In this document: positions 11,022-63,062 of the stretch, piece after piece
Position numbering within the stretch: the stretch's first letter is position 1
How the letters are laid out: the number at the start of each line of letters is the position of its first letter
Origin: Owenia fusiformis
Taxonomy: Eukaryota; Annelida; Polychaeta; Sabellida; Oweniidae
Assembly (NCBI GenBank): GCA_903813345.2
Contig: CAIIXF020000009.1
Location: 18,379,759 to 18,443,758 of the forward strand
Length of the DNA stretch: 64,000 nucleotides
Reading direction: 5' to 3'
Program-made: the position numbers and the translations under genes
The notes under the pieces: generated by a model
Seen by the model: only the letters and a program-made list of their open reading frames with translations
The model's database searches: none
What the model was told of the DNA's origin: nothing

Positions 11022-11867
11022 TCACTTCCTGTATGTGACAGTGAACATTTTGCCGTTTATGTCTCCTACAATCAGCTGACCTTCTTGATGGATTGCAACT
11101 GAGTATGGCCTGTGCAAACCATCTTTCTCTTCAAGAAGGTAGCCATTGAATCTACCTTCAGGGGTCAGGAGATGAATCCTGTGGTTGTTATAGTCTGCAA
11201 CCATGATATTGTTGGCGCTATCTGTGCAGACACCTCTGGGTGAATCTAACTCTCCCTGACCCCTGCCTTCCTTCCCATAAGTAAATGCGACACTTCCGTC
11301 TCTCTCCAAACCTTTGATGCAATGAGCACCATTGTCACTGACTACAATGACACCATTTGTGGTTGATGCCACGTAGAAAGGGTTCTTAAATGTACCTGGC
11401 TTGGAGAGAGCTCTGCTGTCTCCAGTGGATGGATCAACGCAAAGGACTGTCTTGGTGGCGTAATCAATCACCAGCAGGTCTCCTGCAGAGGATGTTGTAA
11501 TACCACGTAGCTGTAGATTTGTTGCAGGTTTTGTTTTACCCCATAGCTTTGGCTTAGCTGTAGCTGCAGGTGCTCTGCAGGTGATGTCACGTCTGTGTGT
11601 TCCATAAACACTGAAGACACTTATGGTGTTTGTTGTGTCAGTAAATAGCAACTCTCCATCTGGAGTGAGTGTTACATAGAAGAAGTCCTGGTCCAGGTCT
11701 TTCACCAGTTGGCATTTGTTGTCATAGATCCTTGTTGTAGTAGAACTATTTACACTTGTTGCAACATAACCTCCAACTGGAGTGACTGTTAGATCAAATA
11801 TACCATTTGGATGTAGTTCAGTCTTCCTCACAATTGGCTCACACAGTTTCATTCCTGCAAACTTGGC
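11022..11867 (-). CDS. last exon: NHL beta-propeller
   Basis: Terminal exon with 281 codons and a stop, acceptor TTTCAG at 11868. The protein has repeated NHL-type blades; the clearest is GQGELDSPRGVCTDSANN followed by IMVADYNNHRIHLL, matching the classic G-x-G-F/L-x-x-P-x-G-V...V-x-D-x-x-N-H-R-I motif. Earlier blades (FDLTVTPVGG, LRGITTSSAGDLLVID, PFYVASTTNGVIVVSD) are more diverged. The length fits a six-blade NHL domain like those of TRIM2/3/71 or Brat, used for RNA or protein binding. It has no upstream start codon in a promoter context, so it must be spliced to upstream exons; the phase-0 acceptor fits the 18131-18199 exon. Confidence 0.85.
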   Translation of the reverse strand, partial: AKFAGMKLCEPIVRKTELHPNGIFDLTVTPVGGYVATSVNSSTTTRIYDNKCQLVKDLDQDFFYVTLTPDGELLFTDTTNTISVFSVYGTHRRDITCRAPAATAKPKLWGKTKPATNLQLRGITTSSAGDLLVIDYATKTVLCVDPSTGDSRALSKPGTFKNPFYVASTTNGVIVVSDNGAHCIKGLERDGSVAFTYGKEGRGQGELDSPRGVCTDSANNIMVADYNNHRIHLLTPEGRFNGYLLEEKDGLHRPYSVAIHQEGQLIVGDINGKMFTVTYRK

Positions 11868-17800: not shown

Positions 17801-20800
17801 TGCAACATGAGTTAAATCTGAGTTAACTTTTTAATTTTAAAATGATTTCAAGTCCCTAACTACATGTAAGGTATCATGAAAAGTGAAGATTCATGTAAAT
17901 GAATATTGCAAAGTTACAAACATTTCGATCATCTTATGATTGGATGGTTTGTTTAGTTGAGGCCATGGAAAATCCAAACCTACAGATTCTATAGACCAGC
18001 CTGTAAAGCTTACAATGCTGTTGACATTTATATTTCACAATATTGGTTTAATCAGATTTTAAACTGACATTCTCAGTTTGTTTCACTAACATTACATGTC
18101 TAATCTATATAACTGTAAGATAAAAGGTACCTGTTTTTCTGCCTGAGGTTTTATATAATCCAGTCGTGCTGGGGGAATGACAGCTTGAAGCATCCTAGCC
18201 TAAAAATAAAATTGTGAAAGAGACATGAAGTGACAGATAAATTGCCAAAAGGTTAATTCGTCTACACTCCTTTCAATAAATTTGGAATCTATAGGCCCTC
18301 CTCCCCATATTCATGGGTATAAGATAAATTGCCAAAAGGTTAATTCATCTCCACTTTCAAGGAATTGGAAATCTAGAGGCCCTCCACCCCCATATTCATG
18401 GATATCAGATAAATTGCCAAAAGGTTAATTCATCTCCACTTTCAAGGAATTGGAAATCTAGAGGCCCTCCACCCCCATATTCATGGATATCAGATAAATT
18501 GCCAAGGTTCATTCATTTACAATCCCCTCAATAAATTTGGAATCAAAAGCCCCTCCTCCCCAATATTTATGAATATCAGATAAATTGCCAAGGTTAATTT
18601 ATTTACAATCCCCTCAATAAATTTGGAATCAAGAGGCCCTCCTCCCCAATATTCATGAATATCAGATAAATTGCCAAGGTTAATTCTAAACACCCATCTC
18701 AATAAATTTGGAATCAAAAGGCCCTCCTCCCCAATATTCATGGATATCAGATAAATTGCCAAGGTTAATTCATTTACAATCCTCTCAATTAATTTGGAAT
18801 CTGGAGGCCCTTCTCACCCATATTCATGGATATCAGATACATTGCCAAGGTTAATTCATTAACAATCCTCTCAATTAATTTGGAATCTGGAGGCCCTTCT
18901 CACCCATATTCATGGATATCAGATACATTGCCAAGGTTAATTCATTTACAATCCTCTCAATTAATTTGGAATCTGGAGGCCCTTCTCACCCATATTCATG
19001 GATATCAGATACATTGCCAAGGTTAATTCATTAACAATCCTCTCAATTAATTTGGAATCTGGAGGCCTTCCTTCCCCATATTCATGGATATCAGATAAAT
19101 TGCCAAAGTTAATTCCTTTTTATCAACGAGCTGATATTGATATCTGCATGAGAGAGCAAAGCGAACGAGTGCATATATCAATATCACCGAGTATCCTACA
19201 CTTAAAAGGAGTGTACTAAATGTTTAATAACATTGAAAATGAATTTCATGCCAAATAGAGTTAATATGGCGGAAAATCAACAAGCGGAGTACATCGTCAC
19301 AATATCCTCCGCATATTGGGTTTTCCGGAGTATATCGTCACGATATCCTCCGCATATTTGTTTTCCGGAGTATATTGTGGCGATATCCTCGGTTTATTCA
19401 TTTTGCCAATAGATTTCAATTTTTTTTTAATGTTATTATACATTTAGCACACTAAGTGTAGGATAAGCATGGATATTAGATAAATTGCTGAGGTTAATTC
19501 ATCTTCACTCCTCTAAATAAATTTAAAATCAAGAGGTCCTCTCCCATATTCATGGATATCAGATAATTTGCCAAAGTTAATTCATTTATAAACCTCACAA
19601 TAAATTTGAAATCAACAGGCCCTCCTCCCCTGTATTCATGGAAATCAGATGAATTGCCCAAAGGTTAATTCATTTACAATCCCCTCAATAAATTTGGAAT
19701 CAAGAGGCCATCCTCCGCAATATTTATGGATTTCAGATAAATTGCCAAAAGGTTCATTCATCTACACTCCTCTCAAAAAATTTGGAATCTAAAGGCCCTC
19801 CTCCCCCATGTTCATGGATATTAGATAAATTGCCAAGGTTAATTCATTTACAATCCTCTCAATTAATTTGGAATCTAAAGGCCCTCCTCCCCTGTATTCA
19901 TGGAAATCAGATAAATTGCCAAAAGGTTAATTCATTTACACTCCTCTCATAAAATTTTGAATCAAAAGGCCCTCCTCCCCCATATTCATGGAAATCAGAT
20001 AAAATGCCAAGATTAATTCATTTACAATCCTCTAAATAAATTAATAGCCCCATATTCATAGATATTTCAGATTAACTCCCAAGGTTAATTCATGCACAAT
20101 CCCCTCAATGAATTTGAAATATAGAGGCCCTCTTCCCCATATTCATGGATATCAGATAAACTGCCAAGGTTAATTCATTTACAATCCCCTCAATAAATTT
20201 GGAATCTAGAGGCCCTCCTCCCCCATATTCATGGATATCAGATAAACTGCCACGGTTAATTCATTCACAATCCTCTAAATAAATTAAGAGCCCCATATTC
20301 ATGGATATTTCAGATTAACTACCAAGGTTAATTCATGTACAATCCCCTCAATGAATTTGAAATCTAGAGGCCCTCCTCCCCCATATTCATGGATATCAGA
20401 TAAACTGCCAAGGTTATTTCATTTAAAATCCTCTCAATGAATTTGAAATCTAAAGGCCCTCCTCCCCATATTCATGGATATCAGATAAATTGCCAAGGTT
20501 AATTCATTTACAATCCCCTCAATAAATTTGGAATCTAGAGGCCCTCCTCCCCCATATTCATGGATATCAGATAAATTGCTAATCCATGTACAATTCTCTA
20601 AATTTTAAAATCAAGAGGTCCTCCCCCATATTCATGGATATTAGATACATTACCAAGGTTAATTCATTTACAATACTCTCAAATCATTTGGAATCTAGAG
20701 GCCCTCCTCACCCATATTCATGGATATCAGATAAACTGCCAAGGTTTATTCTTTACATTCCACATTAGATTTGGAATCTAGAGGCCCTCCTACCCCATAT

Positions 20801-23800
20801 TCACAGATATCAGATAAATTGCCAAGATTAATTCATCTACACTCTTCTCAATAAATTTGGAATCAAAAGGCCCTCCTCCCCAATATTCATGGATATCAGA
20901 TAAATTGCCAAGGTTCATTCATCTACACTCCTCTCAATGAATTTGGAATCTAGAGGCCCTCCTCCCCCATATTCACAGATATCAGATAAATTGCCAAGGT
21001 TAATTCATCTACACTCCTCTCAATAAATTTGGAATCAAGATACCCCTCCTCCCGCATATTCACGGATATCAGATAAACTGCCAAGGTTAATTCATCTACA
21101 CTCCAAAACAAAAATATATTTTTCTTAAATATATGGGATATTCTGATAAAGAATGTTTTCTCATTTTCTCTATTTCATCATTAGACTTAACAAGTTCTCC
21201 AAGGATTGTGCTTCTGATGAATTTTCAACACCCTAGAATAAAATATTACTACAAAAATAAATGTTCCTTAAATATCTGGGGATTATGATAAAGAATAAAA
21301 AATGATATCATTATGCACCTTGTCTAGATACAGAAATCTGATTGGTTCTAAGCTACTGGTAATTTGGCAATATCTGGCTTTTTTAAAAAACTGCCAAATA
21401 TTTTTTTGAAACTGCCCAATATTTTTTGCAATTGGCCAATATTTTTTTCAATGTTTTTGCAACATTCCCCACAAGAGTTTTATTTCTCAATAACTTGAGT
21501 TCTACTAAAGCTAACAGCAGAATCTGATGGCAAACAGAAGGAAAAAAGTGTACTTAATCAATCACAAGTACCCTTATCATTCAAATATTACACATAATTC
21601 TGCAAGAACGCCTCAAATGAATGTAAATTAAATCCCGGGACAAGACAACGCTTTTTCATTTAGTGTATAGCTAGCGGGAAGTTCAAGTTTTCAGAAAAAT
21701 CAAAAGTTCTAAATGTAAGTACATCGTAGCACACTCAAAAAGATTGATTGAGAAGATGCATAATAAAACAAATACTAGATGATCAGGAGCTGGATATGGC
21801 CAGAATACCTATCCTTGAAAAAATATAAGGCTCGGCCCAATATTTCCTACTCTAATAGGTATTCTGCCATATCCAGCTCCTGATACCAGTATTTGTATAA
21901 TATCTAATCATTTTCTCTTAATACCTCTGCTGCATGTTGGTTTCTCAATTTCTCCATATCTTCATGAGACTTTGCCAGTTCATTCTCCAAGGATTGTACT
22001 TTTGCTGAATTTTCAACCGCCTAGAATGAAATATTACAACAAAAATACATGTTTCTTAAATATTTGGGGATTCTGATAAAGAATGAATGATAAGTTCTTG
22101 GTGATGACAAATGATTAGGTGACCTGAGGTTAACATCAACTTTATGGGTCAAGGTCATTCCAAGGTCAAAGGTCAATATCTTGGTATTTTGAGTTTTAAT
22201 GAATTTGGGGCTGTTGTGATTCTTAGCTATCCATGATTAGGTTACCCGAGGTTAAGGTCATTCTGAGGTCAAATATCAATATATAGGTATTTGTTGATTG
22301 AAAGTCCTTTGGGCGCAGTTACCCTTGGCGACCAATGATTAGATGACGTGAAGTCAAAGTCAGCTTCATGGGCAAGGTCATTCTAAGGTCAACATTTTGG
22401 TATTTGGCATTTTAATGCATTTGGGGCCTGTTGTGACCCTTGGTGACCCATGATTAAGCGACCTGGGGTCAAGGTTATTCCTAGGTCAAAGGTCAATATT
22501 TAGGTATTTGATGATTTAAGGTCCTTGGGGCTGCTCTGACCCTTGGCGACCAATGGATAGGTGACCTGAGGTCAATGTTTATGAGTAAAGGTAATTTCAA
22601 GGTCAAAAATCAATATCTAAGTATTTGGCGTTTTAAGGACTTTGGTTGCTGCTGTAACCTTTGGCGCCGATTATAAAGTGACCTAGTGTCAAGGTTAAAT
22701 TGGTTAAGGTCATCTCCAGGTTATAGGTGTGTACAGGGTGTCCTTAAAAGCCCTTCAAATAGAGATGTGGAATTGTATAACCCTCTTAAAACCTGTTAAG
22801 GGACTTTAGAAGAGTTTCCTAGAGTTTCTACCCTCATTGTTCTCTTTTTCCACTCAATATTCATCCGAGCCGAAAAGAATTGCTGCTGTTAAGATGGCCC
22901 GGGAGGACACACTGACTAGTGATTTGGTGTTAAATTGAACTTTATTTTGACCAAACACTAAATTTTGAAATGCTTGTAATTTTTTCACATTTGAGAGTTG
23001 AACCATGATATTTGGTGAATCAATGTAACTTTGGATAAGCTTTAAAATGATATATGACACATACTATGACGACACTGGTATATGTCTGCCTAGGGGGAGC
23101 CCCATACTTTCGGGACACCCTGTATATAAGTATTTGGCATTCTAAGGCACTTGAAGAATATTGTGACCATTGGCAACTCATGATGAGATGACCTGGGGTC
23201 AAAGTCAATATTTATGGACCAAGAATCAGTCAAGGTCAAACAATCAATATGCAGGTATTTAGCATTTTATGGGGTTTGCTGCCATTTGGGGGTGATGTGA
23301 CCCTTAGTTACTCACTCTAATGGGTAGATTTGCTAGTTCTGATAAAGAATGAATGACAAGTTCTAATCATTTCTTATAATACCTCTGCTGCATGTTGGTT
23401 TCTTATTTTTTCCATATCTTCCTGAGACTTTGCCAGTTCGTTCTCCATGGATTGTACTTTTGATGAATGTTCAGCAGCCTAGAATAAAATGTTAAAATAA
23501 AAACATGTGTTTCTTAAATATCAGGTGATTCTGAAAAAGAATGAATGACAAGTTCTAATCATTTCTTATAATACCTCTGCTGCATGTTGGTTTCTCAATT
23601 TCTCCATATCTTCCTGAGACTTTGCCAGTTCATTCTCCATGGATTGTACTTTTGATGAATGTTCAAGAGCCTAGAATAAAATGTTAAAATAAAAACATGT
23701 GTTTCTTAAATATCAGGTGATTCTGAATAAGAATGAATGACAAGTTCTAATCATTTCTTATAATACCTCTGCTGCATGTTGGTTTCTCAATTTCTCCATA

Positions 23801-26800: not shown

Positions 26801-29800
26801 AAGAGCCTATAATAAAATGTTAAAATGGAAACATGTGTTTCTTAAACATCAGGTGATTCTGAATTCTGATATAGAATGAATGACAAGTTCTAATTATTTC
26901 TTTTAATACCTCTGCTGCATGTTGGTTTCTCATTTTCTCCATATCTTCATGAGACTTTGCCAGTTCATTCTCCATGGATTGTACTTTTGATGAATGTTCA
27001 GCAGCCTAGAATAAATGTTAAAATAAAAACGTGTGTTTCTTAAATATCAGGTGATTCTGTGTAAAGAATGACAAGTTCTAATCATTTCTTATAATACCTC
27101 TGCTGCATGTTGGTTTCTCAATTTCTCCATATCTTCATGAGACTTTGCCAGTTCGTTCTCCATGGATTGTACTTTTGCTGAATGTTCAGCAGCCTAGAAT
27201 AAAATGTTAAAATAAAAACATGTGTTTCTTAAATATCAGGTGATCCTGATATAGAATGAATGACAAGTTCTAATCATTTCTTTTAATACCTCTGCTGCAT
27301 GTTGGTTTCTCATTTTCTCCATATCTTCATGAGACTTTGCCAGTTCGTTCTCCATGGATTGTACTTTCGTTGAATGTTCAACAGCCTAGAATAAAATGTT
27401 AAAATGAAAACATGTGTTTATTAAACATCGGGTGATTCTGATATAGAATGAATGACAAGTTCTAATCATTTCTTATAATATCTTTCAAAACTTGTGAGTT
27501 TAATTGAAGAATGACAGTAATAAAGTTTATTATATAATACCTCTGCTGCATGTTGATTTCTCATTTTCTCAATATCTTCATGAGACTTTGCCAGTTCGTT
27601 CTCCATGGATTGTACTTTGGTTGAATGTTCAACAGCCTAGAATAAAATGTTAAAATAAAAACATGTGTTTATTAAACATCAGGTGATTCTGATATAGAAT
27701 GAATGACAAGTTCTAATCATTTCTTATAATACCTCTGCTGCATGTTGGTTTCTCAATTTCTCCATATCTTCATGAGACTTTGCCAGTTCGTTCTCCATGG
27801 ATTGTACTTTTGATGAATGTTCAGCAGCCTAGAATAAAATGTTAAAAATAAAAACATGTGTTTCTTAAACATCAGGTGATTCTGATATAGAATGAATGAC
27901 AAGTTCTAATCATTTCTTATAATACCTCTGCTGCATGTTGGTTTCTCAATTTCTCCATATCTTCATGAGACTTTGCCAGTTCGTTCTCCATGGATTGTAC
28001 TTTTGATGAATGTTCAGCAGCCTAGAATAAAATGTTAAAATAAAAACATGTGTTTCTTAAACATTAGGTGATTCTGAAAAAGAATGAATGACAAGTTCTA
28101 ATTATTTCTTATAATACCTCTGCTGCATGTTGGTTTCTCAATTTCTCCATATCTTCATGAGACTTTGCCAGTTTGTTCTCCATGGATTGTACTTTTGATG
28201 AATGTTCAGCAGCCTAGAATAAAATGTTAAAATAAAAACATGTGTTTCTTAAACATCAGGTGATTCTGATATAGAATGAATAAGTTCTAATCATTTCTTA
28301 TAATACCTCTGCTACATGTTGGTTTCTCATTTTCTCCATATCTTCATGAGACTTTGCCAGTTCATTCTCCATGGATTGTTCTTTTGATGAATGTTCAAGA
28401 GCCTAGAATAAAATGTTAAAATAAAAAAAATGTATTTCTTAAATATCAGGTGATACTGATTAAGAATGAATGACAAGTTCTAATCATTTCTTATAATACC
28501 TCTGCGGCCTGTTGGTTTCTCAATTTCTCCATATCTTCATGAGACTTTGCTAGTTCGTTCTCCATGGATTGTACTTTTGCTGAATGTTCAGCAGCCTAGA
28601 ATAAAATGTTAAAATGAAAACATGTGTTTATTAAACATCAGGTGATTCCGATATAGAATGAATGACAAGTTCTAATCATTTCTTATAATACCTCTGCTGC
28701 ATGTTGGTTTCTCATTTTCTCCATATCTTCATGAGACTTTGCCAGTTCATTCTCCATGAATTGTACTTTTGATGAATGTTCAGCAGCCTAGAATAAAATG
28801 TTAAAATAAAAACATGTGTTTCTTAAATATCAGGTGATTCTGAAAAAGAATGAATGACAAGTTTTAATCATTTCTTATAATACCTCTGCTGCATGTTGGT
28901 TTCTCATTTTCTCCATATCTTCATGAGACTTTGCTAGTTCATTCTCCATGGATTGTACTTTTGATGAATGTTCAGCAGCCTAGAATAAAATGTTAAAATG
29001 AAAACATGTGTTTCTTAAATATAAAGAGATTCTGATAAATAATGAATAATAAGGTCTAATTATTTTTTATAATACCTCTATTTCATGTTGTTTTCCCATT
29101 TTCTCCATATCATCATAAGACTTTGCCAGTTCATTCTCTAAGGATTGTACTTTTGATGAATGTTCAACATCCTAGAATGAAATATAAGTACAAATTTTAG
29201 TAGAAGAATGGTAGCAATAAACATTTTAAAAATTGGCAAAAAAACACTTAAATATCAAGTGATTCTGATAAATAATGAATAGATAGATAGTATTATACAC
29301 GGCTGCACATTGTTTTCTCCTTTCCTATTGTTATAAAAATACTTTGTGAGTTTATTTTATAAATACCTCTGTTTTGTATTTCATTGTCATTTTCTCCATA
29401 TCTTTTTTAGACTGTAACAGTTCATTCTCTATTGATTGGTTTTGTTTCTTCTCTTTTTTGACGTTGTTTTGTGATTTTGATAACTGTTCCTCTATGGATT
29501 GTATTCTTGATTTGTACTGTTGAGCCTATAATGAAAGACATTTTGATAAGACTTCTTCACTTGAACATTGATCTCACTGGTTGATTTCGATATAAATCCC
29601 AATTTCAAATTTTTTAAAAGTACCTCTGTTTTGTGTTTTTCTATTTCTTCTTTGTCTTTTTTAGACTGTTCTCTCACTTTTTTGAGGTTGCTTTGTGATT
29701 TTGATAACTTGTCTTCAGCGGATTTCATTTTTGATGTGTGCTCCTTAGCCTACAATAAAATACATTCTGATAAGTGTAGATAAGCTACACCTACTCTTAA

Positions 29801-32800
29801 ACAGCAGTAGGTGCAGTTTGTCCTATTTTTGATTGGAGAAATTGTGATCTACAATAACTAACACCATCAATCTAACCTATATCATAGATTTTCCAAAAGA
29901 TGGCAGATTTTATTGGAACAGTCTATTGTAAACAGTTGTCTAGTTATCAATAGTAATTCCTTTTCACCTCTGTTTTGTATTTCATTGTCATTTCCTCCAT
30001 GTCTTTTTTAGACTGTACCAGTTCATTCTTGATAGATTGGTTTTGTTTCTTCTCTTTTTTGAAGTTGTTTTGTGATTTTGATAACTGTTCCCCTATGGAT
30101 TTTATTCTTGATTTGTACTGCCTTGCCTACAATAAAATTCTATTATTATATCACTGTCATATTCTCCATTCTTTCATTGGTCTATACATTACATGTGACA
30201 TAAAAAGAGGTATTCAATGGCCATGCCTGTGACATCAAAAAAGGCATATTCAACTGGTGTATTCACCAGTTGCATCATTTGGTCCAGTGTAAATCTGAAA
30301 GTTATACGAAAAAATCTGATAATTCATGTTCTTACAAGACATTCCAAACAGTAAGATTGGCGAATATAACAATGAATAGTATATGATTCCGCAAGGTGTA
30401 TTCCTCTGGTTCTTCAGACTTTGGGAATACACCTTGGAAGAATCATTGAAAGATGAATAGGTATTCACCTCAATAGTATGAAATATTTGTATAATATTAA
30501 TATCATACCGATACCTGTAGATAAGCTAAGGTCTATAAGTTTTCAGATAAAAATGACAGATCACAAATGAATACCTTAGATTCAAATTGTTCTAGATTAT
30601 CATTGACATTCTTTATGTCTGGACTTCAGATGAATGTTCATGAAAGATACTTTCAGGCATTCACGACGTTTAATTTGAAACATGGATCAGATTCTATGCT
30701 AAGGGCTGATGTAAAAATCCCTATACCTTGCATGGAAATTGAACCATCAACCTCAACTGTCTAGGTAATGAGGCAGTATCAAGACATTTCACCCTCTGGA
30801 CACCTCACCCCCTAGACATATCACTCCTAGAAGTTTCATCCCCTAGACATTTCATTCTCTGGACATTTCACTCCAAGATATGTTTTACCATTTGGACATT
30901 TCACCCCTTGACAATCCACCCTCAGTATTTTACTCCTTCACAGTTTATTTTAGCATTCATCATAATTAAAGCTGAATATCCATAGTATAAATGGTATTAC
31001 TCCCGATATTACGCTACACCACACAAAATAGAAAATTCTGAGGTTTACAGAAAATTCCAAAGTCAAACATGCAAATGATGCATAATATTTAACAATAAAT
31101 GGCCTCCAAACCTCCCCTCACAGATATCTGTTTCACACCATTCTGTTACCCTTTTCTGTTTTAAACATTAAAGATTATACATATCAGAAATTACACGTCA
31201 TCAGAAGCTTGACATATAAAAGTATGAAAAAATCAATTTAACTTACACGCAACTGTTTTTTTTTTTTTTAACACAAAACCCTTTTTATGATAATGTGCAT
31301 TAATGTTACTTGGAGAAGAAATCAAAGACTCAAATTCAGTCAAAATTTACCAATAACTCAACATTCAGCGGTGAAATATCTTGGGGTGAAATGTCTAAGG
31401 GGTGAAATATCCATGGATAGAAGCGCCGCCCTAAGGGGTGAAAAGTCCAGAGGTGAAAAGTCCAGGGGATAAAATGTCTTAATACTGGTAATTAGTATAT
31501 GAGTAACACTACTACTAGCCTAGTACTTATTATCCCCACAAACAAAGTTTGGTGTAGGGATATTGTGATCAGTGATTCCCCCAAAGCAGGAAATACAACC
31601 CTTAGACAGAGAATAGGTATACCAATGAGAATCGATCCAGCTCCATTTATGGCAAATCTATACTAATATAGCTATGAGTTTCAAGCTATAGAAAAGATGC
31701 TCAAGAAGGACTATTCAAAAATACTTAAATACACAAAAACCACAAGGTTAATAGATAACTTATGTAGCATGAACAATGATGGAGAAATGGAGAAAGACAT
31801 GAAAGAAATATATCCCAAAGAAAAAAGGAAAAACAACAAGATTCATGCCTCGAAAAACTTAGAAATGGCCACTTGGATTTTAGAATACACAGTCATTTGA
31901 GATATGTGCAAGGTAATTTACCCCCATCTCTGTATTTTAGGATATATCTGAATATTTACCAAACACTGAAATTTACACTTTACATAGTGCCTAAAATTTT
32001 TCATTCGAAATTGCAACTCATAACCTATCAATATAAATAGTTTAATTGACTGATATGAATGATATACTATACCTCATTTTCAGCTTCTTCTGTAACAATA
32101 TTATGGGATTTCTTTTCTTCAGCTAGATCATTCTCAAGTTCTGCAACTTTTCTAGTTAACCTGTCACACTAGAATAATATATTCATAGAGTGTTTTTATG
32201 GCAACAATGATCAATTATGTCATTAATTCATTACATTTTTCAGACTGTTTTTTTATTAGCCTCTTTTACAAGTTCTAATTTAACCTGTGTATGTTCATTT
32301 GTACCTAGTGCCTTCCACTAGTACATCTATATAACATTTATTTCATTGAATTTCCTTGTCAAAAAGAATTTCAATGTGTCGGTCCAAATCTGCCTTACTT
32401 TTTAAATAACTAGAGATGTTTGCTTGATTTGGTAGTATCGTTTTATCTCTTTCTGGATACTAATTATTTTGTCTGCAAGTTTAAAAAAATAAAAAAAATA
32501 TCGCACTTTGAAGAGCAAACTGGCCACCATGCAATTCACCCAGCATGGCCAAAACCTAATCAGACCTTGGCACTAGTCTGCTCTTGCATCTGTAAACATT
32601 TCAAGTTGACAAGGTTAGCGGTTTTCCTGCAATTTTGATGACAAGAATTTATTTGTAGTCTTGAACTTTGGGAAAATTTAGATAACATTGTTTGTGACCT
32701 AATTTGATGACCTTCGACCTTGAAAATTTAACTTTTTCAGACCTCAGTAAGTGTTTTGTAATTAAGCTGACCTAAATTTAAATCGAAAATATCAATTTAG

Positions 32801-35800
32801 AAAATCAACTTTTTGACCTTTTCAAGGCCACTGAAGGTGAACGAAAGGTCAAATCTGAAATCTAAGGTCAGATTTGAACTTCTGAGAACTTGTAGATGTT
32901 TTTTAAAAAAAATTGGTCAATTTGGAGCAAGTTGAAAAATTCAAAATGGCCGCCAAATTGAAAAATTCAAAATGGCCACCATGTAATTCAGCCAGCATAC
33001 CCAAAACCTAATCAGATCTTGGCAATAGTCTGCTCTTGCATCTCTAAAAATTTCAAGTTGAACGGATAAGTGGTTTTCCTGGAATTTTGATGACAAGATT
33101 TGTTGAAAAATTCAAGATGGCCGCAACATAGTTTACCCAGCATGCCCTAAACCTAATCAGATCTTAGCACTAGTCGGCTATTGCATGTGTAAAAATTTCA
33201 AGTTGAACAGGTTAGCGGTTTTCTTGGAATTTTGATGACAAGAATTGATTTGTAGTCTCAAACTTTGAGAAACTTGGATAACATCATTTGTGACCTAGTT
33301 TAATGACCTTGACCTTCGACCTTGAAAATTTCACTTTTTCAGACCTCAGTAGGTGTTTTGTAATTAAGCTGACCTAAATTTAAATCCAAAATATCAATTT
33401 AGAAAATCAACTTTTTTGACCTTTTCAAGGTCACTGAAGGTGAATGAAAGGTCAAATCTGAAATCTAAGGTCAGATTTGAACTTTTCGGAACTTGTAGAT
33501 GTTTTTAAAAAAAAATTTGGTCAATTTGGAGCAAGTTGAAAAATTCAAAATGGCCGCCAAATTGAAAAATTCAAAATGGCCACCATGTATTTCAGCCAGC
33601 ATACCCAAAACCTAACCAGATCTTGGCAATAGTCTGCTCTTGCATCTGTAAAAATTTCAAGTTGAACGGATAAGTGGTTTTCCTGGAATTTTGATGACAA
33701 GATTTGTTGAAAAATTCAAAATGGCCGCCACGTAGTTTACCCAGCATGCCCTTAACCTAATCAGATCTTGGTACTAGTCTGCTCTTGCATCTGTAAAAAT
33801 TTCAAGTTGAACAGGTAAGCAGTTATCCTGGAAATTTGATGACAAGATTTGGTTTATGTCCCGCCCGCCCGCCCAACAGCACAAGACGACGACAATATAG
33901 CACTTTTTCAAAGTGCGATAATAAAAACAAATGCAGACTACCTCTTTTTCTGCATTCTGCGTTCTGCGATTTCTGCATTCTGCGAGCTTTTCCTCCAGTG
34001 TATTAATGAGTACAGACTGTTTCTGGCCCTATATATTTTTCAAAACAAAAAAACACATTAATTCTTTGGTTGTATCATGGGCTTTCAGTTTATCTAAATA
34101 AATTAGTTGCTGAAAAGTGCATAGTGAATGATAAAAAATATACAATCACATATTACTGAACATTAATATTTTTAACTAAGAGATTTAATTACCTTTCCAA
34201 TTTCTTCTTCCAATAGTGCCTTTTTTTCATCAAGTGCAGACCTCAGATCTTCTATCTGCAATTATAACAATATCTTACATCATTCACAATTCTTCATCCA
34301 TGTGAACATTTGAAAATAAACAAAAATTGACTGGTATATCAATAAGTGAGTGACATGCATGTTTTTTCTAATTTAATGTTAAGTATGATGTACTCACTTC
34401 CTTGATTTCTGGATGCTCTTTAAGGAAAGTTTCATATTTTGTGGGATCATCCCTCTCACTATAGGCTGTTGCTAACAGGGTCAGTGATGTTATTTTTCTA
34501 GCATCTTTTGCTTCATGTACACTTTCCTCTAGTGCCTCTGTTGCATCCTCAATTTCTCCTTGTTGCAAACATGCATTTCCATAAGTATTCAGTGCATCAA
34601 TGTCTTTATCTTGAAGCACTCCTGTTTTCAGACTGTCCAGAAACTGTTTGCTTATATCTGTGTCCTTTATATACACATTGCACAGAATCTGCATTATTAG
34701 CTCTGTTGTATTAGTGTATTTGTACTCATCATTTGCAGCCTTCACCCATTTCTTGGCTTGATCAAGTTTCTGCATCAATATATAGGCAATTGCATGGTTC
34801 AGATTGGAAGGATTGTAAAGAGATATTTCGACAAGGGATTCAAGAGCATTTCCTTTCGGTCTTTCCTTCTCTATAGCATGAGCTAAAGGAATCACAGTTG
34901 TAAAGTATCTCAAAATGGCCTTTTCAGTGATTTTTGCAGCGGCAGCATCAGCTATATTCTTCCCAACAAATAACTTTGGCAAAAGTTGGCCCTTTTCCTC
35001 ATCAACTTGCCCATTGATTTGAACATAACCCCTGAGTCTCAGCTCTGCTGCTGTTGATAGTACCATCTTCAAATGGTGTACACCTTCACTTGTCAGTCTC
35101 TTTAGGCTCTCAACATCCCATATGCAATTTGCATCACTCTTTAGTAAGTGAAGTAGGTTGTTGATTACCACACTTGGCAGGCGATATAGCTCCTTTTTGA
35201 TGTGGAAAGAGTCCTTTTCTATCATGTGTCTCTCATATTTCCCATTATACATCTTTTTGACACAGGAGTACTTCACAAGATCTTCTTCCAACTCTTTTTC
35301 AATTAAATCAGATATGACTTTCCATTGTGTAGGGTCGGCTTTAAAATGCTCTTTCATTTCAGCACCCAAAGATTCATTTCCAAAAAGAGTTGTAAAATCT
35401 CCCTTGAAGAAATATAACAACGCTTTCAATTCTTTTTTGTTCATCTTGGGGTACATTTCAAAAAATGCTGTCTTTGTATTTATCAAGCGAAACTTGTTGT
35501 TATGGGGATAAACAAAGTATGGTGTTTTATTTGCACCTTGCATTAATCCATCAAATGAGATTCCCTGCTTTACAGTGACGTAAGAACGTAAGTCTAAGTA
35601 CCAGTCCTTTGTTTTATCACTTGGATCAGTGTTGTCATTTAATGAAGAAATGGCCATTGCTGGAAGGACTGTTTCCCCAAATGATATTAGTTTGAGATGA
35701 AGAATCATGATCATTTTCTCCAAGTATTCCCTATATTCAGGTTCCATTTCACTTTGACTAGAATCTTGTACTGCAGCAAACTCAACATCTGAGAATGGAG

Positions 35801-38800
35801 TTGTTTCCTTCCTTGAAAATGACCCAAATGCTATGAGAGCAAAGTCAATGGGATGGAAGTCTAGTAAATCTTGACATTGTTTTACTAAGTCTGACATGAA
35901 TTCTTTAATCTCGCTATGGATCCATTTAAAAATGTCTCCAATTTGTTTTATTCTTTTTTTCTCTTGCACTATTCTTTCATCATTCCCAAGCTTTTCCTCA
36001 TAACAATCACAATCTCTGTTTTCATCCAGTTCTTGGATTTTGACTTTCAAGTCTCTCCTGATAGTATCAAGTTTTGTTTTATTGCTCTTTTCATCTTGAA
36101 AATAGCTTTCAGGGGCTTTTTTCCCAATACAGTGTTGAAAGAATAAGTTCAGTGCCTGCCTTTTTGCAGTGTTATACATAGTTACTTCATCTTCCAACTC
36201 ATCACTACACTGCACTATTCCACATTCGTAAACTGCTATGGCTTTAACAAACTGCATCGGTTCTTTATCAATTTTACCAATATCCCTAATAATATTGCCA
36301 AGTTTGAGTAGCAGCTCTACATGCTTCTTCCTGTTGGCCCTCCATTCAACCTCGGAAATGCTACCTTTGATCTTATTCTTATTGATAGTTGGGATTTCTT
36401 TTAAGTCATTTGTTATTTGTTGTTCTTGTTTACGGAGGTATTTAAGTTTTGTATCGAAATCTGAATATTCAGGCTTCAGAGATTTGAGATCTTTTCGTAT
36501 TTGATTGATTGTGGCTGCTTCCTCAGAAAACTACAATACAATATGATTAAGGAATAAAAAATGCTGTATCATTCAATCTATATTGGGAATATAAAAACAT
36601 GAGTGTATGTACTAACTAATACACATAATGCACAAAGTTGAAGCAAATGTAAATGGGTTAATTAATATTCAATATTTATTAAAAATACATCACAGAAAAT
36701 TCATGATGGGAAAAGTATTCACAATTGTGTATCCTTTAAACTATACAGTAGTTCTCACCCCGGGGTTCACTCTAAATAATTTGGGTAGGCATGTGCAGCA
36801 GGGGTAATTTTGGCTTGGGGCATAAACCATGGAAGCTGGCCACTCTGAGAGGAAAAAAAACATGGAAAATTTGTCGAAGAGAGAGCCTTTTTTAAGTTAA
36901 AAATCAATTTTTCTACAAATAATGGTAATAAATCGGTAAAATCAGTTGGCGAGGTCTAGGATAAATCACCTAAAAAGTGGATTTTATAGTTAAACACATA
37001 TATTTCAGGAAATTTACTCCCTTTTATAAGTCCGAGAGGAAGTATGCATGGAAACGTTCAATCTTGGGAGGAAATTGACATGGAATAAATGCTCAAAAAG
37101 GGGGTTTTTGGCGTAGGTAATTAAGAGGTGTATTGGAGTGAACCCTCCGGGGTTCTCACACATCACCATTTTTGTTGGATGATGGGAAATCAGGTAATTG
37201 AGTACTACAAGAAATTAGTTCTCAATATCTTTTATCTTATTCCAGATCACCCTGTAAAAGCCAAAAACAGCACCTTAACTACCCACAGCAAGTTAATATA
37301 ACTTTGTCCTACGATGACAGAGAAATAGTATATTTTAGTTTTAAAAAAATATATAATATTTTGAAAAGCAGCTGTCAATGAGTCAGATTAGCAACTGCTT
37401 ATATTAGATAATTCAATTAATTTATATATTTACTATCGATCAAAAACATAACCCTCAGAAATTGTTTGCAATATTTTACATGTACATGCCTCTCTCTTGA
37501 CGTGATGTGTTTTCTTTTGTTAGATTGCTGTTTTTGGTTGCTTAATTGTGTATGAGTTTCTGTTCTATTTTTTTAAAGTTTGAATTGGAGTAAAAATGAT
37601 TTTTCTTACATCTTCTTCAGCTCTTTTTGCATCTTCCTCCGCCCTCTTTGCATCTTCCTCAGCCCTCTTTGCGCCTTCTTCAGCCTTTTTTGCCCTTTCC
37701 TTAAGCAGCTTACTGACTACATCATCCACGTTTCGTATGGTAACAGGTTCATACTATAAATGAGTATGATAAAACATCAATGCACAACAATGTTTAGGGG
37801 GACTATAGTTTGCCATTGTATTACACTGTTAACCAAGTGAGATAAAGTGAGATGGATGTGAGACAACGTGCCAATTAATAGAATTAATGAATATTTATAG
37901 AAAAAAGAAATTCCTGGATTCAGACATGAGAAGGCTGGAAGTCTATAAGACACAGTTGAACAACTCTTGTCATTTTATCGGCTTTGTATAAAAACCTCCT
38001 ACCTCATACCCACCTACCCACCTATGTGGGGCATGATACAGTCATTTTTAAATCTCAAAATAAATAGCTCTTATTATTAACATTTTTACAATAGACTAGA
38101 TGCGAGTAGAAATGATATTGATTTACGTCATTAAATATTCAAAATTCAGTCAAAGCGATGTCATATTTGAAATCTACATGTAAAAATACATCTAAAAATA
38201 TGATTTAGAAAATTGTATATCAACTTTAAAAATATAATCTTTTTTGAAAATGTGACTTCTAGTTCGGGTTGATTCCCAATAGACCCCATATTAAAAAATC
38301 ACAAAAAGTGAAATATCTTTTCTTGTACTAGACATATAACATTTTCTTTTACTGGACATACTTAAATTTGCATAACTATTCGATACATAAGGGCTATATG
38401 AAAATTGAACCACTAAAACAGATGTAATTTAAGTTAAAGGGAACTTTCTACTATACCCGCCATGCTATCTGACCCGAGCGAGCCACCTGGTGGTGAAACT
38501 GGTAACTACCTACTCGCATTTGCGTTATTCCGGCTTTATTTTATGACTAGACGGATGACAGATCCATAAATAAAGGCATATGGGTGCATTGTAATGTGTA
38601 ATGACCTGAGGGCGCCCCGGGGGATAACTAACAAGCGACCACGAGCATAGGTCCAACAAGCCAGATAAAGAAATTGAAAGAAGGTGTGCTAAATCCAATG
38701 CCCTGAATGGGAATCAAACCCAGCTGGGCTGTAGTAGCGACTTGCTATCAAGGGTAATTACAAATGCATCTATAATTCATCTTAAACTAAGATTTAATAA

Positions 38801-41055
38801 ACTAAGATCTTAAAAATTGAACCCTTCAAAGACTGTATCATGTCCAACATACGTTGGTAGGTGGGTCTTAGGTAGGAGGTTTTTTATACAAAGCCCATTT
38901 TATCTGGCACTTTTATCATTATATTGCATCATGTCAATACAAATGTTAGTGAGAAAATTCCCAAGTTAGAGTCTGCTTTATTGTGTTTCAGTTTTCAGTT
39001 TCAGTCTCCTTTATTGTGTTGAACATGCATAAATAATTTTTTTACAATCAAATTTATTTCATTTGCTTATGTCTCAGAGCCCTTTTGAGAAAGTTACATT
39101 AGGTGTGCACATACCTCTCTAAAATCTCTAATTAATTTATAGTTTATGGCAGATCGCCAAAGCACTTCATGAATACAAATTCATAAAATACAGTTTTTCA
39201 AATTAATGACTATCTTGTTTATCTAGACTCAGCTGACATGACTGAACAAACAATATCTTGTAAAAATGCCATTTATATTTAGAACATTTTTGAGAAAACA
39301 GTGCAGCTCATATCCAAATATGGTGCGACGGGCCTGTGGTACTTTAATAGTCTTTATCATTTTTTGAAGTTATCGGTGTCATTTAGACACATGTTTACAA
39401 CTCAAATCTGATAGAGAGATGTTTACGACTCAAATCTGACAGAGGCCTCTTCATTTGAAAAGGCCTCTGTCACTTTCAACACTTATAGCGATTATCAATT
39501 TTGTTTTCTCAAGATCATGATGAATATACCAGTCAGTCTGTCTTATCTTATCTTTTGGCTAGTAGTAAAGTTGAAATAAAATTGAAAAAAAAACTGGTCC
39601 AGTTTGCTCCAATCTGATTGGCTGACTGAGTTCAAGAAACGTGATGCATGTTTCCATTTATAACTTTCAAGGGTTTTGAAATGTAGAAAAACAGTTGTAT
39701 GTTGCTTTGGCCTAATTTTCTCAATATATCGGCGATGCTGTGTCTTTAATTTATTCTCAAGATATATTATATTTTAGGCATGTAAGATATGATATTATGA
39801 GGTTATATAATGGTTGATTCCGTATATCGTGTTTATACTCAAATGATATATATCATATACTCACGAGAGTATAGCGATTTACAGAATCAACCATTATATG
39901 ATCTTATTATCCCACCCAAATCTTTAATCAATTAAAAAGGTTAATCTAAATTCAGCAGTTGTATATCAAGTCGAAGAGTTGTATTCGCTGCCCAGGAGTT
40001 GTATACGCTATCCAGGAGTTGTATATCGTTCTCAAGAGTTGTATACGATGAGTGTTGGTTTTATATTGCAGATATACAATGCTGTTATACAATCATATAA
40101 AGCACTTAGGGTGGGATAATTGGTGATATCCCATTATAATTGCTCAAACTCATGTCATTCAGCATGGGTTTGGAATGGGATAGGAATATACCTCCTTCAA
40201 CCTTTTATCTTACCAATCATTTTTTGACCAAAAATGGTAAAATAAAGATAAAGCACTTTGTCTATGAACCCGATGAAAGCTGAATGTTGTTTTTAAAATA
40301 CATTTCCCATGTAACACAAACAAATGTTTAAAACTCAGTCATTCAGCGTGGGTTTGAAATCACATATGGCAAATGTTCTATGTTCTTTCATTCTTAGACT
40401 ACCGAGTTGCATTGGTCTATCCCAAAAATTTCCGGTAAAGTTGATCACTACACAAGCACAGACATATTGTGCAATGGCTCACATCATTCTCCTTATTTTT
40501 GTTTCAATTTTCCAAGCTGTTAGTATAGACATTATTCCCACAGATAAAAACCTGGGGTATTTCATGCTTATAGTGATTGTGACCCACTTTGGCATTTGGA
40601 GCATGTTTTATAAATGGCCATAAAATCGTAACTGTTGGGGACCAATAAAACCATGACCGAGGGAAATATGATATTGACCGAACGAGCGTAGAATGAAATA
40701 ACATTGAGCAAGGTTTAATTATGCCAAATATGACTTTAAGACCATGCTGAATGTCTGAGTTATAAAAATACATTTGATTGGGTTACCTGTTTTGGCTCAT
40801 CTTGTATATAAATGAATGTATAATCTTAAAGCTTACCTGCAGCTCTTCAACCTCCCACTCCAGTGGCACGTGACATTCATGTTTGCACTCTGGGCAGTTG
40901 AATGATCCACCACTCAGTTCACTTTCCACTACAAGTTTCTGAATACAAGTAATACAGCAACGGTGCCTACATTGCAATTCCTTCAATGATGTATTGGTGC
41001 GATTGTCCTTACATAATACACAAGACTGCAGAGACCCTTCATGGCCATCCTCCAT
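11022..41055 (-). CDS. giant RING-nucleotidyltransferase-coiled-coil-NHL gene
   Basis: Predicted by joining 41 exons by hand: 41055-40837, 37753-37610, 36530-34398, 34255-34193, 34028-33942, 32168-32073, 30126-29968, 29749-29624, 29525-29367, thirty-one 96-bp exons between 29171 and 21925, 18199-18131 and 11867-11022. Every internal exon is a multiple of three and every junction is phase 0, with CAG/TAG acceptors and GT donors. The product would be about 2,358 residues: RING (1-61), charged coil (74-121), nucleotidyltransferase and helical tail (122-832), coiled-coil rod (833-2054), linker and NHL propeller (2078-2358). The RING suggests ubiquitin E3 activity, the NHL suggests RNA or protein substrate binding as in TRIM-NHL proteins, and the nucleotidyltransferase-like core is unusual there. 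The ATG at 41055 is the first in frame just before the RING; a 5' untranslated exon upstream is likely. A two-gene split is possible, but the shared phase, single strand and absence of another start or end argue for one gene. Confidence 0.7.
11868..12520. repeat. tandem duplications in the intron next to the NHL acceptor
   Basis: A ~122-bp segment is duplicated directly: tgcaaacttggcctgaaatt at 11856 reappears at 11978, followed by the same aaaataaaacattctattag. The copy therefore includes the NHL exon's acceptor and first codons. A further ~180-190-bp duplication (about 12110-12300 and 12300-12500) shares ttttgataaaagtgatttaa and caaac-gtttgtttataaa. Confidence 0.75.
12967..14135. mobile_element. 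TIR element with internal ~190-bp tandem units
   Basis: The left end starts gcccgtagccag and the right end finishes ctggctacgggc, exact inverse of each other, and each is followed inward by G/C homopolymer-rich sequence (ggggggggggcttgaaccc; ctcgtccgagcccccagagc). The interior has about five diverged units (phrases tagggccctaaaacca, tatggcccgttttt, ggccctacaatatttttg, ggcccatcct). It has no transposase frame. This end type is widespread in marine invertebrate genomes as non-autonomous DNA elements. The open frames inside are repeat artefacts. Confidence 0.75.
14170..14765. repeat. diverged tandem repeat (~110-140-bp unit)
   Basis: About five imperfect units with the blocks gacttt(a/t)gatttaagattt, cctttggttgacctt, caattgttacacttttgtaa, gcaaacttgcttcaaattgacc and tcagaagttcaaatctgac. 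The same phrases occur, scattered, near 5415-5640, 32830-32945 and 33450-33545, so this is a dispersed family in local tandem form. Confidence 0.65.
15209..17608. mobile_element. 2.4-kb TIR element with nested palindromic core
   Basis: The ends are ~50-bp inverted repeats: left cacgaggggaaagtgtaccc then tgtatatacaacctaccacc, right its complement with three or four mismatches (reading in reverse cactaggggaaagtgtacct). CAC(G/T)AG ends are compatible with a CACTA-like element, but I see no identical 3-bp flanks and no transposase. Inside, 15861-16505 is a second element or palindromic core. Confidence 0.65.
15861..16505. mobile_element. nested palindrome-rich element
   Basis: Ends are inverse: left ttaatgttacgcggtatatg, right accgcgtaacaattaata. 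Between them, a ~20-bp phrase (cacctgcggtatatggcata or its variants) occurs about eight to ten times in both orientations, so the DNA can form many small hairpins. Frames on both strands (15873-16157, 15901-16128) read the same motif (CGIWHIPQVS, CGICHIPQV) and are artefacts of the palindromes. Confidence 0.65.
18131..18199 (-). CDS. linker exon before NHL domain
   Basis: Twenty-three codons (ARMLQAVIPPARLDYIKPQ...) flanked by TTTTTAG acceptor and GTACCT donor. It is phase 0 at both ends and joins the end of the coiled-coil array to the NHL exon. Proline-rich and unlike the coil, it plausibly forms the hinge between rod and propeller. The large introns on both sides (3.7 kb and 6.3 kb) are filled with repeats. 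Confidence 0.6.
19118..19191. repeat. short palindromic flank shared with 55430-55505
   Basis: Contains gatatctgcatgagagagca, and then agcgaacgagtgcatatatc; the flanks are inverse of each other around a ~20-nt loop. The same block precedes the related element at 55551, but with about 45 extra bases in between, so it may be part of a larger composite element. Confidence 0.55.
19194..19463. mobile_element. 270-bp MITE with TA target site
   Basis: Starts tcctacacttaaaaggagtg and ends with the inverse (cactaagtgtagga), TIRs of ~37 bp, flanked on both sides by TA (19192-19193, 19464-19465). The interior has two tandem copies of a ttttccggagtatat-cgatatcctccgc block. It inserted into the 86-bp minisatellite. 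A longer relative lies at 55551-56173. TA duplication suggests the Tc1/mariner-type group, on pattern only. Confidence 0.75.
21157..21233 (-). pseudogene. decayed copy of the 96-bp coiled-coil exon
   Basis: On the minus strand the sequence begins after ttctag with gtgttgaaaattcatcagaa and reads VENSS-AQSLEN, matching the array unit, then has a net 4-base deletion that shifts the frame, and lacks the normal GTATTATAAG donor. It lies about 690 bp beyond the last intact copy (21925), on the NHL side. It is a dead exon and should be skipped. Confidence 0.65.
21768..21896. mobile_element. near-perfect hairpin beside the last array exon
   Basis: The 31-bp arms at 21782-21812 (atcaggagctggatatggcc...) and 21855-21884 are inverse of each other, and the inversion continues weakly outward (acaaatact). 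The loop is ~42 nt. It ends 28 bp from the exon at 21925, on its donor side in minus-strand terms. Size and form fit a tiny MITE. Confidence 0.65.
21925..29171 (-). CDS. exon array: 31 copies of a 32-residue coiled-coil exon
   Basis: Thirty-one exons of exactly 96 bp. Plus-strand start positions: 21925, 23383, 23575, 23767, 23959, 24148, 24340, 24533, 24725, 24917, 25109, 25301, 25500, 25692, 25884, 26135, 26327, 26519, 26711, 26910, 27098, 27290, 27541, 27733, 27926, 28118, 28307, 28500, 28692, 28884, 29076. The usual unit is 192 bp (96 exon plus 96 intron). Each exon reads as a variant of AAEHSSKVQSMENELAKS then HEDMEKLRNQHAAE, with acceptor CTAG and donor GTATTATAAG or GTATTAAAAG. I saw no stop or frameshift in any copy I translated. 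The unit is 32 residues = 3 heptads + one 11-residue hendecad, so coiled-coil register can continue across units with a stutter. Variation is concentrated at residues 2, 3, 6 and 7. Because all exons are symmetric (phase 0-0), any number may be skipped without breaking the frame. Confidence 0.85.
22085..23330. repeat. diverged ~115-bp tandem repeat split by a mariner-like element
   Basis: Repeated phrases are gtgacctgaggtcaa, aaggtcattccaaggtcaaa, ggtcaatatttaggtattt and gttgtgacccttggcgacc; roughly seven units before 22730 and two after 23124. It fills the longest intron within the exon array (22021-23382). Confidence 0.7.
22734..23122. mobile_element. 389-bp mariner-like MITE, TA target site
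   Basis: Left end cagggtgtccttaaaagccc and right end gggacaccctg are inverse, each next to TA (22732-22733, 23123-23124). TACAGGGTGTCC termini are typical of mariner-type elements. No transposase is present; the frame at 22854-23060 is not conserved-looking. Confidence 0.7.
24917..27636. repeat. higher-order duplication: 7 exon units copied once
   Basis: Exons starting at 24917, 25109, 25301, 25500, 25692, 25884 and 26135 match those at 26327, 26519, 26711, 26910, 27098, 27290 and 27541, with offsets 1410, 1410, 1410, 1410, 1406, 1406, 1406. Private variants are shared: VVGL at the start of the first exon with a CCAG acceptor, the A-x-K-H-S-A-K-A-Q-L/S type third exon, the extra gaattctgat in the fourth intron, and a ~59-bp insertion (aaaacttgtgagtttaattg...) before the seventh. 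This added 224 residues in one step. Confidence 0.85.
29367..34255 (-). CDS. exons 4-9: coiled-coil linker modules
   Basis: Six in-frame exons: 34255-34193 (21 codons), 34028-33942 (29), 32168-32073 (32), 30126-29968 (53), 29749-29624 (42) and 29525-29367 (53). All are rich in E, K, Q and L with heptad spacing and no domain signature. The two 53-codon exons are clear duplicates of each other (both carry QYKSRI, EKKQNQSI and MTMKYKTE) and end like the array exons (KTE or xxE before the donor). The 32-codon exon has the same length as the array unit. This suggests the whole rod grew by stepwise exon duplication; the 53-codon exons equal one 32-residue unit plus three heptads (21). Introns here contain repeats, including a 1.42-kb element ending about 21 bp from exon 33942-34028. 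Confidence 0.75.
30575..30645 (-). pseudogene. second decayed coiled-coil exon
   Basis: The minus strand reads gaacattcatctgaagtcca, translating EHSSEVQT before a stop, like EHSSKVQS of the array unit, and ends at a plausible GTATTC donor. It is shortened and in a broken frame. It sits among the older coil exons, so the array unit once had a copy on this side too. Confidence 0.5.
30774..31487. mobile_element. 714-bp TIR element
   Basis: Left end cagtatcaagacatttcacc and right end (inverse) cagtattaagacattttatc; subterminal regions hold five to six copies of a ccctggacatttcac-type motif pointing inward from both ends (30788-30940 and 31370-31470). Middle AT-rich, non-coding. Simple non-autonomous DNA transposon. 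Confidence 0.7.
32499..33920. mobile_element. 1.42-kb element with internal ~600-bp direct duplication
   Basis: Left end tatcgcactttgaagag and right end inverse (tttttcaaagtgcgata). The interior contains two long direct copies: phrases ctagtctgctcttgcatctg, aaaatttcaagttgaac, gttttcctggaattttgatg and ttttgaccttttcaaggtca recur at ~600-bp spacing. Near the right end is a C-rich tcccgcccgcccgcccaac. The right end is only 21 bp from the donor end of exon 33942-34028. Confidence 0.65.
34398..36530 (-). CDS. exon 3: DUF294/GlnD-like nucleotidyltransferase with helical tail
   Basis: A single 2,133-bp open exon (711 codons), with acceptor TTGTAG at 36531 and donor GTGAGT before 34398. The first ~220 residues are charged and helical, with a coiled-coil. 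At protein residues 357-371 lies AFGSFSRKETTPFSDVEFA, the GS...D-x-E signature of the polymerase-beta nucleotidyltransferase fold as seen in DUF294 and GlnD-type uridylyltransferases. G, S and the first two acidic metal ligands (D369, E371) are present; a third acidic residue could not be assigned. The C-terminal ~150 residues look like helical TPR-type repeats (for example LLATAYSERDDPTKYETFL). Related RING or TPR nucleotidyltransferases are known in invertebrates, but substrate and activity are unknown. The frame reads past the donor for a few codons to a stop (34368), which would give a truncated isoform if the intron were retained. Confidence 0.85.
36759..37151. mobile_element. 393-bp MITE with 8-bp target duplication
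   Basis: Ends are inverse (ggttcactc near the left, gagtgaaccctccgg right) and the 8-mer gttctcac flanks both sides (36751-36758 and 37152-37159). An 8-bp duplication fits hAT. Non-coding. It lies in the intron between exons 2 and 3 of the giant gene. Confidence 0.6.
37610..37753 (-). CDS. exon 2: charged heptad-repeat coil
   Basis: Forty-eight codons with acceptor TTTATAG and donor GTAAGAA. After YEPVTIRNVDDVV and a leucine/lysine-rich stretch, the exon ends in heptad-like tandem copies of AKRAEED, a strongly predicted single helix or coiled coil. The DNA is itself repeated (tcttcctcngccctctttgc). It links the RING to the nucleotidyltransferase exon in phase 0. Confidence 0.8.
37980..38895. 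mobile_element. 916-bp TIR element with 9-bp target duplication
   Basis: The ~68-bp ends are inverse: left ggctttgtataaaaacctcc then tacctcatacccacctaccc, right the complement ending ttttttatacaaagcc. The 9-mer cattttatc is present at 37971-37979 and 38896-38904 exactly. It contains a nested piece (about 38097-38540) whose relatives are at 17605-17700 and 63705-64000. Nine-bp duplications are characteristic of Mutator-like (MULE) elements. Confidence 0.8.
38695..38750 (-). repeat. tRNA-like B-box fragment (possible SINE)
   Basis: The minus strand contains gggtttgattcccattcagg, similar to the tRNA T-arm (B box). No full cloverleaf could be folded. Possibly a SINE piece within the 916-bp element. 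Confidence 0.25.
38906..40782. other. intron of the giant gene with small palindromes
   Basis: No exon seen. A hairpin with arms tataatggttgattc / gaatcaaccattata lies at 39803-39900; another, gacagaggcct / aggcctctgtc, at 39438-39470. Short repeats gttgtatacg occur at 39958-40060. The block around 40145-40380 (cattcagc(a/g)tgggtttg) is duplicated with an offset of about 180 bp and appears inverted near 40745. Confidence 0.5.
40837..41055 (-). CDS. exon 1: C3HC4 RING finger
   Basis: Seventy-three codons from ATG 41055 to a GTAAGC donor. The cysteine/histidine pattern is C12-x2-C15-x13-C29-x-H31-x2-C34-x2-C37-x16-C54-x2-C57, a complete RING-HC finger as in TRIM-family E3 ligases; all eight zinc ligands are present. 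After the RING comes an acidic stretch (EWEVEELQ) leading into the splice junction. Two ttgcag sequences sit just upstream of the ATG, so the coding start may lie within an exon spliced to a further upstream 5' UTR. An upstream in-frame GTG extends the frame but is not needed. Confidence 0.85.

Positions 41056-58628: not shown

Positions 58629-63062
<4,434 letters not shown>

Follow-up and report, generated by a model that had tools for sequence, protein, structure and literature searches.

A Minus-Strand Locus of Owenia fusiformis with RING, Nucleotidyltransferase, Coiled-Coil and NHL Exons, and Its Paralogs

The window, a 64,000-nucleotide stretch of the Owenia fusiformis genome, carries on its minus strand a RING finger, a nucleotidyltransferase (NTase), a long coiled-coil rod and an NHL propeller in succession. 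This raises the question of whether one gene encodes all four parts and, if so, what kind of protein it would make. The DNA displays this domain order, a family of paralogs, an array of rod exons and a conserved catalytic motif. The initial annotation had proposed a single phase-0 minus-strand chain from 41055 to 11022, and its coordinates, strand and domain order are correct. The window gene, as modeled, comprises 42 exons that join into a 2,358-residue chain of 269 kDa with zero internal stops. In all 42 exons the length is a multiple of three, the phase is 0, and the inner borders are AG and GT, giving GT-AG introns. Because the exons were selected by these GT-AG and phase-0 borders, this regularity taken alone is partly a product of construction. 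The chain consists of a RING exon (residues 1-73), a charged helix (74-121), the NTase exon (122-832), the rod (833-2077), and the NHL exon (2078-2358).

The RING, charged helix and NHL ends

The terminal domains are those that the initial annotation had described: a complete N-terminal RING, no B-box, and a C-terminal NHL propeller. Exon 1 (40837-41055) contains the start ATG and a C3HC4 RING finger matched by Pfam zf-C3HC4 (E 1.3e-5, 25.4 bits, cut-off 21). Exon 2 (37610-37753; phase 0, GT-AG) encodes the charged helix with its KRAEED repeats. A RING exon with a phase-0 donor and a related charged exon are present in both paralogs that were read upstream, C7 and C413. The tblastn matches between the charged exons are weak (E 0.002 and 0.028); those of C7 and C413 end in ...QED before GT, in the same frame and context as ...EED in the window. 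Exon 42 (11022-11867) encodes the NHL propeller and the stop codon, with a Pfam NHL match of 59.8 bits (E 1.6e-16) and TRIM71/TRIM3 as its nearest relatives among solved structures (7.5e-40).

Neither tblastn with three TRIM-like ORFs as queries nor a pattern applied in all six frames found a B-box in the window gene. As a control, the open frame L024 carries a RING and two B-boxes by Pfam. L024 is a TRIM-like frame of 633 residues in the same genome and the top-scoring RING relative outside the family, with a RING 48% identical to that of the window gene, and it also matches the window NHL domain by tblastn. Most of the better RING matches outside the family lie in open frames of ~600-650 residues, many of which also hold NHL matches at 40-50% identity among the matches listed. 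The window gene may thus derive from a TRIM-NHL-like one by loss of the B-boxes and fusion to an NTase.

Judged by the features of TRIM (RBCC) proteins, the window gene has the RING, lacks the B-box, and has a coiled coil as indicated by hydrophobic period; it also ends in an NHL propeller of the TRIM type. TRIM-NHL E3 ligases (TRIM2, TRIM3, TRIM32, and TRIM71; TRIM subfamily C) share the N-terminal RING, the coiled coil and the C-terminal NHL propeller, whereas the window gene lacks the B-box and adds a 711-residue NTase exon and, from there to the NHL exon, a stretch of 1,245 residues. NHLRC1/Malin, which is derived from TRIM, also combines RING and NHL without a B-box (PMC3503706). Unlike the window gene product, Malin is short and carries six NHL repeats alongside its RING, and neither a rod nor a nucleotidyltransferase is mentioned in the part of that article available to us.

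The nucleotidyltransferase and possible activities of the protein

Exon 3 (34398-36530) encodes 711 residues that include a DUF294/GlnD-like NTase, flanking regions, and a terminal TPR-like repeat. The initial annotation had recognized an NTase core of this type with a GS...D-x-E motif and named DUF294 and GlnD as the families to search. Pfam DUF294 matches exon 3 with 25.0 bits, only 4 bits above the cut-off of 21 (E 1.9e-5), whereas the GlnD matches of NCBIfam are weak and fall far below their cut-offs. DUF294 also matches all 10 members of alignment A1, which comprises 10 of the 22 close NTase places in the genome, at E up to 0.01. The motif reads G357-S358..R361..E363..S368-D369-x-E371 in chain numbering. 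In exon numbering, G236, S237, R240, E242, P245, S247, D248, E250, and D327 are invariant across the 10 aligned members. The last of these, D448 of the chain, is only a candidate for the third catalytic carboxylate.

Bacterial GlnD/DUF294 nucleotidyltransferases share the pattern G-[GS]-x2-R-x-E-x2-P-x-S-D-x-[DE] with identical spacing. The exon-3 family differs in that the motif ends in D-x-E rather than the D-x-D of GlnD; moreover, Pfam matches no HD or ACT domain in exon 3, and the NTase is fused to a RING, a rod and an NHL propeller. In hhalign comparisons, the 10 aligned members place DFALIAFGSFSRKETTPFSDVEFA against the motif of E. coli GlnD (E 7e-5, probability 63%), and eight close members align with seven GlnDs at E 1.1e-4. 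Controls gave 0.13 for NHL, ~0.5 for reversed GlnD, and 0.07 for TRIM, and the distant NTase-TPR set alone aligns only weakly with GlnD (E 0.007, probability 5.5%). The comparisons with the seven GlnDs and with the distant set used 8 close and 10 distant sequences, with L002 and then L006 (another exon), L018, and L020 left out. Pfam, the motif, the paralogs and hhalign together support exon 3 as a DUF294/GlnD-type nucleotidyltransferase at the level of sequence.

A point against this assignment is that a PDB profile search with A1 returned no nucleotidyltransferase; most of its matches were to TPR, PPR, and designed repeat proteins, alongside a few other weak ones. A single-sequence PDB search gave five weak matches, including the guanylyltransferase MJ0488 (E 0.47), which lies outside the NTase core. 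Single-sequence AF2 modeling of exon 3 (pLDDT 38.7) is uninformative on its fold. The terminal TPR-like repeat is below cut-off in the window gene; TPR_2 is matched in 8 of the 10 A1 members, with a best value of 8.9e-8. Viral and GTDB scans with A1 found no relatives, which is weak evidence of absence because each scan rests on two short patterns.

The reading that we tentatively favor, at a little under an even chance overall, is a TRIM-NHL-like RING E3 ligase with the NTase standing where the B-boxes would be. Dimerization through the coiled coil of the rod, which would reach ~185 nm if fully helical, would pair RING with RING and NTase with NTase at one end, and one NHL propeller with another at the opposite end. 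A ligand, RNA or protein, may be bound by the propellers, and clustering could then allow modification of a bound protein or of the complex itself: ubiquitination by the RING and addition of a nucleotide (AMP or UMP) by the NTase. Gain and loss of near-identical 96-nt phase-0 exons would tune the length of the rod. Should both catalytic domains be active, ubiquitin and nucleotide marks would be written by a single protein. To our knowledge, no TRIM relative is known to write both.

It is also conceivable, if somewhat unlikely, that the same gene carries a catalytically dead NTase, serving a structural or nucleotide-binding purpose in what would be only a long RING-NHL ligase or scaffold. Such a loss would fit the replacement of the D-x-D of GlnD by D-x-E, the candidate status of D448, and the distant member L007, which has G-D in place of G-S and lacks F-D-G. 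It fits less well with motif residues that are invariant in all 10 aligned members. In addition, kanamycin nucleotidyltransferase is among the active relatives that have D-x-E.

An active NTase within the same architecture could instead make a nucleotide second messenger or modify RNA, as do OAS/cGAS-type enzymes and terminal transferases, with the NHL propeller sensing RNA and the RING being regulatory. The resemblance of the NHL domain to TRIM71 and TRIM2/3, the binding of RNA by the NHL domains of some orthologues (in the available text of PMC9634614), and a family expanded as sensors would be are all compatible with this activity. However, the sequence kinship of the NTase is with GlnD/DUF294, and the NHL domain has a net charge of only ~+2, making a messenger- or RNA-directed function unlikely. 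E. coli glnD is annotated as a protein-modifying enzyme, and GlnD generally modifies a protein; for this reason, protein modification is favored over messenger synthesis.

The favored ligase may also have a role in defense, as the initial annotation had suggested. Expansion of the family would fit a part in biological conflict, the case that PMC8195603 makes for other multidomain families in marine invertebrates; the main text of that article, as far as available, mentions neither DUF294 nor NHL. The proteins could then be lineage-expanded innate sensors in which the NHL ends capture a ligand, the dimerized RING and GlnD-like NTase heads mark it with ubiquitin and nucleotide, and rod length varies among alleles and paralogs as copies of one 32-residue exon come and go. 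This extension is a doubtful one.

Paralogs, the wider NTase family and the one-gene question

A genome search with exon 3 gave 68 rows that correspond to 62 places, of which 22 are close (43-100% identity, window included) and 40 are distant (25-36%); the 21 close paralogs are 43-57% identical to the window NTase. All 62 places entered the neighborhood count, the six omitted rows being second pieces of places already counted. Domain lists are lower bounds, as 63 of 103 NTase, 92 of 92 RING, and 137 of 318 NHL candidates were scored. In at least 7 of the 21 close paralogs, and hence at no fewer than 8 of the 22 close places once the window gene is included, the NTase is preceded by a RING and followed by an NHL on one strand within 60 kb. 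Among the matches listed, the other close places have an NHL only (three, with C29 at a contig edge), a RING only (two) or neither (nine), so that RING, NHL, or both go undetected at 14 of the 22. One RING match near the 22 close places lies in the reverse order. None of the 40 distant places has a RING or NHL nearby among the matches listed.

These sister genes of the same layout point to a genuine protein family that seems not to have been described, and they provide a ready comparative set. The initial annotation had called the system previously undescribed. The architecture is indeed absent from the literature matches listed, and it may already carry an annotation somewhere that no paper discusses; the RING-NTase-NHL fusion is not shown in the available part of PMC3710099, an article dealing with DUF294_C and the helical domains of GlnD. 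The window gene is not alone, however, as the same genome holds at least seven further genes with the RING-NTase-NHL order and at least three with NTase and NHL, and the NTase family is larger still.

DUF294 is matched at no fewer than 53 places (E up to 1e-3) in the 498-Mb genome, and this expansion within one animal genome has the look of a multigene family yet to be charted. The genome also has NTase-TPR open frames with a homologous NTase (25-36% identity); they differ from the window gene in the TPR arrays of the two checked by Pfam (L003 and L039) and in having no RING or NHL nearby among the matches listed. The L003 frame matches DUF294 at 4.8e-11 (Pfam). L039 combines an NTase with 31 TPR_12 stretches in a single 2,205-residue frame. 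In L037 (1771-5001, minus strand), the NTase is preceded by a long N-terminal tract of STNTPVLPQKVHTSTDT-like repeats. L038 has a different architecture, with the NTase between charged, coil-like stretches; read whole, it gave no DUF294 match at 0.001.

Three paralogs were read for their exons, with C413 followed as far as position 59090, before its NHL exon is reached. All three (C413, C9, and C7) have arrays of 96-nt coiled-coil exons. The 21-residue helix of exon 4 (34193-34255), with which the rod begins, has a counterpart of equal length and similar sequence between the NTase and NHL regions of each. A second, partial RING-like copy (L122, ~9-68) adjoins the RING exon of C413. Because the paralogs share exons, borders, and order with the window gene, the model does not rest solely on the chosen splice sites. 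With their conserved domain order and a number of conserved exon lengths and borders, the paralogs are also the main support for a single gene that includes the NHL exon, as the initial annotation had it; its exons would be spliced into one mRNA.

The least secure joins of the model are the introns 21925-18199 and 18131-11867, which flank exon 41 (18131-18199). This final rod exon of 23 residues is the weakest of the model and has reasonable splice scores. In C7 and C9, an exon opening VQ[RK]LQN precedes the NHL exon, with a TAG or CAG acceptor and a 23-residue stretch, the same length as exon 41. A tblastn search of the window region with these comparably placed exons did not recover exon 41.

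A division into two neighboring genes, one encoding RING, NTase, and coil and the other encoding NHL, would accord with the 3.7- and 6.3-kb introns and the weakly supported exon that precede the NHL exon, and with an in-frame ATG near the start of the NHL exon in the window, L028, and L029. Against this, C9 has no ATG at the corresponding start, and the NHL exon is entered through a phase-0 CAG acceptor in all four, the letters directly before the NHL frame being TTTCAG in the window, L028, and L029 and TTGCAG in C9. NTase and NHL also follow each other on one strand at 11 of the 22 close places, window included, among the matches listed. With these shared acceptors, the co-occurrence of NTase and NHL, and the paralog arrays, a two-gene arrangement was judged the less likely reading and appears very improbable.

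The rod and its exon array

Within the gene model, the rod spans 1,245 residues (833-2077) between the NTase and NHL exons, mostly coiled coil judged by hydrophobic period, in agreement with the more than 1,200 coiled-coil residues initially annotated. Of nine periods tried, hydrophobicity is strongest at 3.56, near 32/9, and we read the 32-residue unit as three heptads plus one hendecad. After exon 4 come coiled-coil exons of 29 residues (exon 5, 33942-34028), 32 residues (exon 6, 32073-32168; a 32-residue exon is comparably placed in C413), 53 residues (exon 7, 30126-29968), 42 residues (exon 8, 29749-29624), and 53 residues (exon 9, 29525-29367), all of them phase-0 exons with GT-AG borders; exons 7 and 9 seem to be duplicates of each other. 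Exon 10 (29076-29171; phase 0, GT-AG), a diverged 32-residue exon, marks the 5' end of the array. It is followed by exons 11-39 (23383-28979), 29 near-identical 96-nt exons of 32 residues in a repeat of ~192 bp. Exon 40 (21925-22020), the second related 32-residue exon, is 87.5% identical in protein to the array unit. The rod is thus an expandable exon array, a feature beyond the earlier reading.

Array introns are 92-155 nt long, mostly 96. Exon identity (94.7%) and intron identity (94.0%) indicate a young or homogenized array; being nearly equal, they leave room for no more than mild constraint on the protein that it encodes. The pN/pS ratio, which points to such mild constraint, is 0.64 for the window array (29 units), 0.42 for C9 (19 units), and 0.44 for C7 (11 units), with first, last, shorter, or outlying units omitted. 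When nine units of C413 are also compared, window units are 88% identical to those of C413 and ~50% identical to those of C9 and C7, and C9 and C7 units are 82% identical to each other. Identity within each array is 90-95%, higher than between arrays, suggesting that the arrays grew or were homogenized gene by gene. A genome DNA search with one unit, which skips common words, gave 49 matches, all in the window gene or C413. By eye, from exon coordinates and intron lengths, a seven-unit block seems to be present twice at an offset of ~1,406-1,410 bp. Units are also lost, as shown by a decayed, frameshifted rod-exon copy at 21154-21284 on the minus strand.

That the locus is a pseudogene or an assembly artefact, its array a collapsed or chimeric satellite, is highly improbable, since the very high unit identity and the one decayed copy must be set against frame and splice sites intact in all 29 array exons, arrays in three paralogs each with its own consensus, and a chain free of internal stops.

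Chicken BG genes offer a parallel to the exon array of the window gene, as they form an expanding and contracting family in which many tiny repeated exons encode a presumed coiled coil; in the part of PMC4046983 available, they differ in having 7- (or 8-) residue exons, a butyrophilin-like membrane protein, and other domains. The array in Owenia fusiformis offers a natural test of rod-length evolution in a putative coiled-coil ligase.

Other repeats lie upstream of the window gene. About 52 copies of a 31-bp repeat (41535-43140) start 480 bp upstream of its ATG. Farther on, two large arrays of ~146-bp repeats (43659-50709), whose consensus units look mutually reverse-complementary, meet near 48040 as an inverted satellite pair. 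An ORF on the plus strand (59196-59573) is presumably the start of a ubiquitin-specific protease.
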